Of a stretch of 35,127 nt of DNA, positions 1-12,143 are shown one piece after another (position 1 is the stretch's first letter; each line of letters starts with the position of its first letter). The notes below the pieces were generated by a model, which saw only the letters and a list, made by a program, of their open reading frames with translations, searched no databases and had not been told where the DNA came from. The stretch comes from Clostridiaceae bacterium. GTDB taxonomy: Bacteria; Bacillota; Clostridia; Acetivibrionales; DUMB01. The position numbers and the translations under genes are program-made. Location: contig DULF01000082.1 of NCBI GenBank assembly GCA_012840535.1, positions 1 to 35,127 of the forward strand, in the 5' to 3' direction.

Positions 1-233
1 AGCAGGATACAGCCAGCATGTGGAGGAACAGTTACAGGCTGTGAAGGAAGGCGAAGCTGGAATACGGTATCAGGAACCACGCTGCGCTACGGATGGCGCA
101 GCCGCTGGTGCTGAGGCACGGATGACGAATCACCAGCGCCCGTATTGCAGCGAGCCTTACTTGCTACAGCCTGTCTGGGACGGAACTTAGCTGCTGGAGA
201 CTGCTTATCTCATGCCAGCATAAAGGGACACCC
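1..233. repeat. Structured ~230-bp repeat, copy 1 (cut by window edge)
   Basis: Aligns without gaps to 9597-9829. In bases 1-216 I count 11 substitutions, about 95% identity. It folds into nested helices: 1-5 with 201-205, 10-17 with 190-196, 34-42 with 166-174, and 56-67 with 140-151 (one mismatch). The last helix encloses two hairpins: 81-89 with 94-102 (loop CGGA), and 103-110 with 131-138. The outermost helix of copy 2 has its left arm outside this window. There is no credible open frame. It is followed by GGGACACCCC at 225-234. It could be a structured RNA, a non-autonomous mobile element or both; the strand is unknown. Confidence 0.85.
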
Positions 234-9471: not shown

Positions 9472-9894
9472 GGGGACATACCTCGACGTTTAGTCCAAAG
9501 GAGGGAGAGGCCTGTCCAATCGAGACAATCAAAAGGGGACACCCCTCAAAGATGGGTTGTACTCGGTTGTACTCTAACCTTAATTGCATGAGAAAAAGCA
9601 GGATACAGTCAGCATGCGGAGGAACAGCTACAGGCTGTGAAGGAAGGCGAAGCTGGAATACGGTATCGGGAGCCATGCTGCGCCATGGATGGCGCAGCCG
9701 CTGGTGTTGAGGCACGGATGCCGAATCACCAGCGCCCGTATTGCAGCGAGCCTTACTTGCTACAGCCTGTCTGTGACGGAACTTAGCTGCTGGAGACTGC
9801 TTATCTCATGCCAACGTAAGGGGACACCCTTAATCAAAAGGGGACACTACTCAACGTAAAAGAATACCCGCTTGATCGAGAGATGAGTGTCCCC
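9472..9894. mobile_element. Candidate non-autonomous element bounded by inverted GGGGACA
   Basis: The segment begins with GGGGACA (9472-9478) and ends with the reverse complement TGTCCCC (9888-9894). Further direct GGGGACA motifs occur at 9535, 9820 and 9840. 9840-9853 pairs with 9884-9894 to form a terminal hairpin with a small bulge. The interior holds copy 2 of the structured repeat. There is no transposase and no credible gene; open frames here have no ribosome binding sites and no family motifs. Mobilisation in trans by a Y1/REP-associated transposase is a hypothesis. The element ends six bases from the stop codon of the minus-strand gene at 9900. Confidence 0.5.
9586..9829. repeat. Structured ~230-bp repeat, copy 2 (complete)
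   Basis: Full copy of the element at the left edge of the window. The outer helix is visible here: 9586-9593 (GCATGAGA) with 9804-9811, then 9596-9601 with 9797-9802. Inner helices are 9630-9638 with 9762-9770, and 9652-9663 with 9736-9747. The latter encloses the hairpins 9677-9685/9690-9698 (nine pairs, loop TGGA) and 9699-9706/9727-9734. A further four-pair hairpin GGCA/TGCC sits inside the last loop. The difference from copy 1 at position 9684 (C against T) keeps pairing as C-G or T-G. There is no coding potential. Confidence 0.88.
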
Positions 9895-10547: not shown

Positions 10548-12143
10548 ATGGAAGGACATAAATATGAATATGATCTTGCACCAAGTAAAGTCGGCATATA
10601 CGTAAGGCAAAGCAGGGACGAAAAAGAAGAAAACCATGAAACGATTGAGACTCAGAGGGACTTGCTCATTGATTATGTAACAAGGGAAAAGCTGGGCATT
10701 ATCTACAAGGTATACATGGACGACAATGTATCAGGTTCCGAATTTGAAAGAAGGGGCCTTAAAGAGCTGGAAGAAGACATTGTCGCAGGTAACATAAATA
10801 TGCTTGTGATAAAGGATTTATCCAGGTTAGGCAGGAATAATGCTAAAACGCTTTTATTTCTTGATTTTATTGAAGAACACGGTGTAAGACTTATAACGTA
10901 TGACGGCAGGTATGACAGCCTGAGAGACAATGATATTGTAGGGATCGAAACGTGGTTTAACGAACGTTACATCAGGGATATTTCAAGAAAAATAAGGGCA
11001 AATCTCAGGTTTAAGATAGAGAAAGGCGAATATATCGGTAATGCGCCATATGGCTATATTAAGTCTCCGCATGAAAAAAACAAGCTCTGCATAGATGAGG
11101 AAACCGCACATGTTGTAAAGGAAATATTCAAGCTTTACAAGGAGGGATACGGCTATTCATATATAGCGAAACTGCTTAACAGCAAAGGATACCCGTCACC
11201 GGCTTCAAGAAACAGGGTCTATGCTCCCGGAAAATCCCCGGGATGGAATGCCGTGGCCGTGCAAAGAATTCTTAAAAACAGGGTTTATGTAGGTGATACG
11301 GTACAGGGGGTAAGTGAAAGGATAAGTTTCAAAAGCAAAAAAACAAGACGTCTCCCTGAATCAAGGTGGGTTATTACCCAAAATACCCACGAGGCAATAA
11401 TCAGCAGGGAAGAATTTGAGTTAATCCAAGATTTAAGGAAAAGTAAAAGAATGCCGTCAAAACCTCACAAAGGAACGTTACATACCCTTAGAGGCCTGCT
11501 GTTTTGCGGGAGGTGCGGGAGCATAATGTATGCCAGGGTAAGAAAAAACAAGCCCATGGGCTATATTTGCAGCAATTATTGCAAAAACGGCAAAGAGTAT
11601 TGTACAAGCCACTATATTACAGAGTCAGAAATAGTTGAAATTATTTCAACTGAGTTGGAAACATTTTTTAATGATCCGGATTTAGTGGAAAAAGTTGAAA
11701 AGCTGTATGAAAAAAGCCTGTCGGACAATTCGGAGAACTCAACCAGGATTGAGAAGTTGAAACAGCAGCTTCAAGCAAAGCAAAGGCAGCAGGATACCTT
11801 GTACCTTGACAGGCTGGAAGGGAAAATATCAGAACAATTATTCATCAGGATGAATCAGCATATAGAAAGAAAGATAATGCAACTTAGAAATGAAATCCAA
11901 AAGCTGGTAAATGAGAAATTTGACGATAATAATTTCAGTGAAATTTTTTCTGGTTTTAGAAAAAGCATTCAAAACGGTTGTATTAACAATGAAATGGCAA
12001 GAATGCTTATTGAAAAAATTACTGTCTTTGATGCCGAGGATAAAATAGCGGACATGAACATTGAAGAGGCATTTAAAAGTCAAAATGCCGGCAATAATGA
12101 ATACGGGGCAATAGTTGTTGATTTTAAATATAAAAAAGTATAG
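10548..12143 (+). CDS. Large serine recombinase
   Basis: Site-specific DNA recombinase of the large serine integrase family, 531 aa. The resolvase/invertase catalytic domain spans about residues 12-150: nucleophile Ser22 in YVRQSRDE, and the IKDLSRLGRN segment carrying conserved arginines. The recombinase domain follows at about 165-275 and a zinc ribbon at about 319-346 (CGRCG ... CSNYCKNGKEYC). A long coiled-coil stretch (about 385-460) of the kind that mediates synapsis comes next. AAGGTGG (10531-10537) lies ten bases before the ATG. It looks intact, but no phage, conjugation or transposon genes surround it. It could be an orphan integrase, a relic of an excised element or a developmental rearrangement enzyme. 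Confidence 0.93.
   Translation: MEGHKYEYDLAPSKVGIYVRQSRDEKEENHETIETQRDLLIDYVTREKLGIIYKVYMDDNVSGSEFERRGLKELEEDIVAGNINMLVIKDLSRLGRNNAKTLLFLDFIEEHGVRLITYDGRYDSLRDNDIVGIETWFNERYIRDISRKIRANLRFKIEKGEYIGNAPYGYIKSPHEKNKLCIDEETAHVVKEIFKLYKEGYGYSYIAKLLNSKGYPSPASRNRVYAPGKSPGWNAVAVQRILKNRVYVGDTVQGVSERISFKSKKTRRLPESRWVITQNTHEAIISREEFELIQDLRKSKRMPSKPHKGTLHTLRGLLFCGRCGSIMYARVRKNKPMGYICSNYCKNGKEYCTSHYITESEIVEIISTELETFFNDPDLVEKVEKLYEKSLSDNSENSTRIEKLKQQLQAKQRQQDTLYLDRLEGKISEQLFIRMNQHIERKIMQLRNEIQKLVNEKFDDNNFSEIFSGFRKSIQNGCINNEMARMLIEKITVFDAEDKIADMNIEEAFKSQNAGNNEYGAIVVDFKYKKV

Follow-up and report, generated by a model that had tools for sequence, protein, structure and literature searches.

The repeated intergenic element described here is, as judged from its sequence, a divergent and previously unrecognised branch of the known TwoAYGGAY family (RF01731) whose scores lie below the curated cut-off, and a new finding is that the TwoAYGGAY family behaves as a dispersed palindromic repeat. 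The element was found in a window of 35,127 nucleotides, which is the entire contig C65 of the 3.19 Mb draft genome of a Clostridiaceae bacterium (hereafter the host). Since the element is multi-copy and palindromic, the fold of its core covaries, the core appears to be selected on one strand and its ANGGA tips are kept, we favour, with moderate confidence, an element of the foldback (MITE-like) type, non-autonomous and dispersed, with a divergent TwoAYGGAY core and a putative CsrA-binding site.

Copies in the host genome

A sequence-only reading of the window had described a two-copy element with an elaborate fold, GGATG at the tips of two hairpins and no coding frame. The copy number proved too low, as the whole host draft genome holds five near-full copies (two in C65 and one each in C160, C40, and C67) and ~10 fragments. 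The remainder of that description agreed with our results. Positions 1-216 and 9597-9812 differ at exactly 11 positions with zero indels, and the ungapped alignment of the two window copies extends to ~233, with 14 differences; the exchange that had been singled out, T at 88 vs. C at 9684, both opposite G, corresponds to a U-G/C-G exchange. Positions 9590-9835 fold at -118.2 kcal/mol vs. -82.2 ± 5.2 for shuffled sequences (z = -6.9), the loops of the two hairpins are AUGGAU and ACGGAU, and no conserved reading frame was seen, the C67 copy containing single-base indels. Copy 2 is situated between convergent genes, and its matched arms (GCATGAG...CTCATGC, spanning 9586-9811) show compensatory changes in the C40 and C67 copies. 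Below the tip of its hairpin 2 are tandem GA mismatches, with 9709-9710 opposite 9723-9724. Coordinates are given in Table 1.

Table 1. Parts of the two window copies and the hairpins adjoining copy 2.
Feature	Positions	Strand	Remarks
Copy 2, near-complete (outer arms, bulged stem, two-hairpin core)	9586-9812	+	Match to model R1 at 9620-9781, 199 bits
Copy 2, left arm of inverted repeat, GCATGAGAAAAAGCAG	9586-9601	+	Pairs with 9797-9811
Copy 2, right arm of inverted repeat, CTGCTTATCTCATGC	9797-9811	+	Partner of the 9586-9601 arm
Copy 2, hairpin 1	9677-9698	+	Loop AUGGAU at 9685-9690, CsrA-type ANGGA; aligns to RF01731 from position 49
Copy 2, hairpin 2	9699-9734	+	Loop ACGGAU at 9714-9719
Copy 1	1-219	+	5' arm lost at contig end; hairpin 1 at 81-102, hairpin 2 at 103-138
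REP-like hairpins, GGGGACAC...GTGTCCCC	9820-9893	+	Adjoin 3' side of copy 2; adjacent repeat, membership of the element not implied

The ends of the host copies are inverted repeats, and no convincing target duplications were found at the copies in the host genome, the nearest being GCACAACAT/GCACATCAT at the C40 copy, with one mismatch. Searches of phage and plasmid collections gave no match to the element. A gene for a large serine recombinase (Resolvase, Recombinase, and zinc ribbon domains) lies at 10548-12143 on the + strand, 0.7 kb past copy 2, and no connection between this gene and the repeat was found.

Hairpins similar to those on the 3' side of copy 2 occur on its 5' side (9472-9542) and after copy 1 (282-330), and GGGGACAC...GTGTCCCC hairpins flank most host copies, the exception being the C40 copy. 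REP-like hairpins of the form GGGGACACTCC...GGAGTGTCCCC likewise adjoin most host copies (the three window sites, and L003, L007, and L015). The host has three Y1_Tnp genes, and two of these gene regions have GGGGACA-type motifs in their vicinity, L033 with four and L032 with one; the GGGGACACTCC...GGAGTGTCCCC hairpins may constitute a REP/RAYT repeat family of their own that depends on these genes. The setting is akin to REP / TnpA-REP (RAYT) systems in its GGGGACAC hairpins and its Y1_Tnp genes; however, the 230-nt core itself is no REP.

Relationship to TwoAYGGAY

Rfam models gave zero matches in the window at the gathering threshold. A permissive Rfam search returned TwoAYGGAY (RF01731) at 9676-9734 with 36.7 bits (E 1.8e-4 to 4.6e-4, depending on search space); the sequence-only reading had named no family and had also missed that the tips are of the ANGGA (CsrA-motif) type. 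The host copies score 22.5 to 36.7 bits with RF01731, short of its curated cut-off of 43 bits, and the match covers only their two hairpins (model positions 49-108 of 168). In the whole host genome, the five full copies were the sole matches at E up to 1. A model built from the core of the host variant, R1, matched in 14 of 58 genomes of the host's order, and four loci were matched by both RF01731 and R1 (G006 C7, C50, and C12; G015 C57), the last of these at 56.4 bits with RF01731, i.e., over the cut-off. Because the two models share these loci, which bridges the gap below the cut-off, we treat the element as a divergent TwoAYGGAY branch. Among 52 sequences, two adjacent hairpins with A-Y-GGA-Y loops were present, the second and last base being freer than Y, together with an enclosing bulged stem with tandem G-A pairs and an outer stem. 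The element is thus like published TwoAYGGAY in its two adjacent AYGGAY-loop hairpins, its tandem-GA bulged stem, its long, variable outer stem and its clostridial distribution, but the host copies fall below 43 bits and have a stem sequence of their own.

TwoAYGGAY was described by Weinberg et al. (2010; PMC2864571), who scored it as probably RNA, and the parts of that paper drawn on here contain no description of it as a mobile or dispersed repeat. In a survey of the class with RF01731 at E up to 0.01, 38 of 391 genomes were carriers, usually with several copies each; these counts are lower bounds, because no genome had more than seven candidates scored. In G013, a CRISPR array with RF01320 repeats is located ~0.4 kb from one TwoAYGGAY copy (L040 2031-2798).

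Mobility in a related genome

The complete genome G093 belongs to the same class and contains more than 40 places that match a 285-base unit, which has inverted ends CTNNNATTCGTAATAT and encloses the TwoAYGGAY core. Both ends were recognised in 17 units, 15 of which have matching 8-10-base flanks, or 16 if an 11-base one is included (flanks counted at a 75% match or better; deliberately mismatched pairs, the control, were positive in 1.8%). Variants in this genome have extra palindromic modules, lack the core or carry it inverted (L146). The extra modules of L143-L145 and L150 are ~110-120 bases long and inserted at a single point, and one copy has three ANGGA tips. Among 124 matches in G093, no autonomous transposon with these ends was recognised. 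We consider it highly probable that the TwoAYGGAY family is a dispersed repeat that is mobile in at least one genome, the evidence for transposition of the whole unit with 8-11-base target duplications coming from G093 only. A host transposase that recognises the arms would act in trans to move the copies, although no transposase for the element was found.

Of the two possibilities raised by the sequence-only reading, a structured RNA and a DNA hairpin that a mobile-element enzyme recognises, each found support, the former in a known structured-RNA motif (RF01731) with very strong covariation and the latter in relatives within a transposing MITE with target-site duplications.

Orthologous copies within one genus

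Copies from four genomes (G020, G038, G044, and G047) of a genus in the host's order, g7, can be sorted by orthologous site into eight groups. In four of these groups, copies differ in the direction of the core with respect to the flanks (orthologous pairs L178/L209, L165/L180, L170/L190, and L196/L197), which could reflect an inversion switch that occurs naturally or be a side effect of the palindromic arms. Cores within G047 and within G038 are 85-87% alike and the arms of different copies are at the level of shuffled sequence, while the two arms of each single copy are near-perfect complements. At one orthologous site that is vacant (group G, G044), core and arms are both missing; since no palindrome remains there, the idea that the arms are pre-existing target palindromes that received the core gained no support. 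The idea that the arms are merely fast-evolving RNA stems does not agree with the lack of a wobble bias in the outer part or with arms at shuffled level between copies whose cores remain that similar. Renewal of matched arms through template-switch correction of palindromes is a possibility. One of the G044 copies is adjoined by an abundant repeat, GGGGGACGGTCCTGTCAAGGGGACGGTTCTTGT (G044 C314, C54, C353, and C414; query part 2925-2980).

Bacterial MITEs and structured repeats include bcr1 of Bacillus cereus, RUP, Correia and ERIC. The element resembles these in being short and non-coding, in its inverted-repeat ends, in the target duplications of G093 and in its RNA-like fold. It differs in that the arms are unrelated between copies in genus g7, the core being conserved and not the ends.

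Covariation and strand-specific selection

With seven sequences, 24 of 75 pairs had changed on both sides, compared to 6.9 in shuffled and 2-3 in slid controls. With 52 sequences, in an alignment fitted to the model, 50 of 53 pairs had done so, and the covariation score of that alignment was 0.495, vs. 0.159 ± 0.007 when shuffled and ≤0.098 when slid. ANGGA loops were present in 49 of 51 first hairpins and 47 of 51 second hairpins (three of these being shorter AGGA loops), the A, G, G, and A columns of the loops were conserved at 96-100% vs. a column median of 78%, and the tandem GA beside hairpin 2, a feature described for the TwoAYGGAY family (PMC4333381), was retained in 47-49 sequences. 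In some copies one hairpin ends in ACGAU, a recurrent tip that lacks GGA, and its CACGATG form was seen, in one hairpin of the pair, across unrelated genomes (L166, L186, L040, L045, L048, L072, and L076); it may be a second functional tip type.

Selection on a + strand RNA is expected to leave far more G-U than A-C pairs, whereas selection on a duplex or palindrome leaves the two equal by strand symmetry. A SAM-riboswitch control from the same order gave a GU:AC count of 41:5. In the element, the counts, which ignore kinship, were 30:5 in the mid stem, 13:2 in hairpin 1, 9:9 in the inner stem and 2:3 in hairpin 2, for an inner-core total of 54:19 (P = 5e-5). The outer part gave 31:34 (~1:1), which differs from the riboswitch (P = 6e-6, again ignoring kinship), and a strand-symmetric aligner applied to long stems gave 158:143, a ratio of 1.10 (bootstrap 0.90-1.36, kinship likewise ignored). 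Taken with the conserved tandem G-A mismatches beside hairpin 2, the GU excess argues for selection of the core, and not of the arms, as a single + strand. For the arms, the counts argue for a DNA-symmetric process or an absence of RNA constraint.

These data bear on the serious rival to a foldback element with a CsrA-binding core, namely a DNA-only palindromic repeat in which a (single-stranded) DNA hairpin would be acted on by a transposase or recombinase that takes the ANGGA tips as its recognition signal. Such a repeat would be consistent with the target duplications in G093, the core inversions between arms (L146 and four of eight g7 loci), the random orientation to genes, the arms without GU preference and the REP-like hairpins adjoining host copies. 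We nonetheless consider it unlikely. The strong GU preference of the mid stem and hairpin 1 is RNA-like, although in DNA, too, G-T is the milder mismatch; the tips fit the CsrA consensus, and nearly all carrier genomes encode CsrA. Moreover, no tip-reading enzyme was found, and none is known.

Possible link to CsrA

The host encodes CsrA (G000 C167). Across the class, CsrA is present in 33 of 38 carriers vs. 92 of 353 non-carriers (P = 2e-13, ignoring kinship), and without the host's order in 25 of 30 vs. 81 of 342 (P = 1e-10, also ignoring kinship). All 24 carrier genera include a genome with CsrA, compared to 78 of 223 genera overall. In the host's order, CsrA is near-universal and hence not enriched among carriers, and it was not seen in three of the 14 carriers there (G020, G041, and G047, drafts that are 83-94% complete). 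However, flagellin is present in 35 of 38 carriers, an association as strong as that of CsrA, and all sampled CsrA genomes also encode flagellin. The association of carriers with CsrA is therefore confounded, and this control weakens co-occurrence as clean evidence; we regard it as suggestive only.

As to the RNA itself, the core presents ANGGA in hairpin loops and in pairs, which is the motif of a CsrA-binding RNA, and a 2014 study predicted, on the basis of motif matches, that CsrA binds TwoAYGGAY (PMC4333381). We tentatively predict that the core binds CsrA, a possibility that we hold to be somewhat short of probable. The + strand would be transcribed from a weak promoter of its own or by read-through, and no promoter for the element was identified. 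The two ANGGA hairpins, side by side on the tandem-GA stem, could then bind one CsrA dimer, which would tie the element, or the transcript around it, to the CsrA network.

The same tips would also suit a multi-copy family of sRNA genes, a clostridial counterpart of CsrB that sequesters CsrA and whose repeats arose via gene duplication and not transposition. CsrB/RsmB-type RNAs (RF00018) likewise have GGA in hairpin loops, and in a control scan E. coli CsrB came out with the clan label of TwoAYGGAY (CL00106). The published prediction of CsrA binding is in keeping with such genes, as are the sites common to two to four species of genus g7, which have thus been retained. We find this explanation quite improbable, however. 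CsrB is one sRNA gene with many sites, whereas the element offers a single pair of sites per copy in many copies, has palindromic arms and no known promoter, and its CsrA binding is a prediction. In addition, genus g7 has no conserved sequence outside the core and hence no conserved promoter there, cores are inverted, and transposition is clear in G093.

Gene context

The elements are intergenic, and where both neighbours could be assigned from ORFs, 18 were antisense to both, 12 convergent, eight sense, and four divergent. This mixed orientation disfavours a leader role and makes + strand read-through unreliable; with the core inverted at four of eight orthologous sites as well, transcripts running in from outside would often carry the wrong strand. 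A cis-regulatory leader, for which the Rfam type label of TwoAYGGAY is the one point in favour, is largely refuted by these orientation data and very improbable, considering also that copy 2 lies between convergent genes and that cis-regulation was scored 'n' by Weinberg et al. (PMC2864571). A sequence left over from a group II intron, from HEARO/omega RNA or from the end of an insertion sequence is just as improbable, since it would account for a repeated and structured sequence and nothing further, no Rfam model of such families matched (on which ground HEARO/omega RNA and group II introns were rejected) and no coding sequence was seen inside any copy. The sequence-only reading had made its case depend on covariation and on the absence of such a match; covariation is far above background, and intron, HEARO, and insertion sequence were all unmatched.

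Implications

A foldback element with a TwoAYGGAY core could be part of a wider pattern, in which clostridial transposable palindromes spread paired CsrA-binding hairpins and so form a mobile element within the CsrA network, some lineages keeping the core and renewing the arms as matched pairs by a DNA-level process. We put this forward as a rather unlikely extension of the results. The function of TwoAYGGAY has been unexplained since 2010, and its dispersed nature, together with mobility in at least one genome, puts its conservation in a different light. The old guess of a CsrA connection becomes directly testable in cultured clostridia. Finally, the comparison of GU to AC pairs suggests that selection at the RNA level does not necessarily follow from heavy covariation when a repeat is palindromic, a caution for covariation-based RNA discovery.
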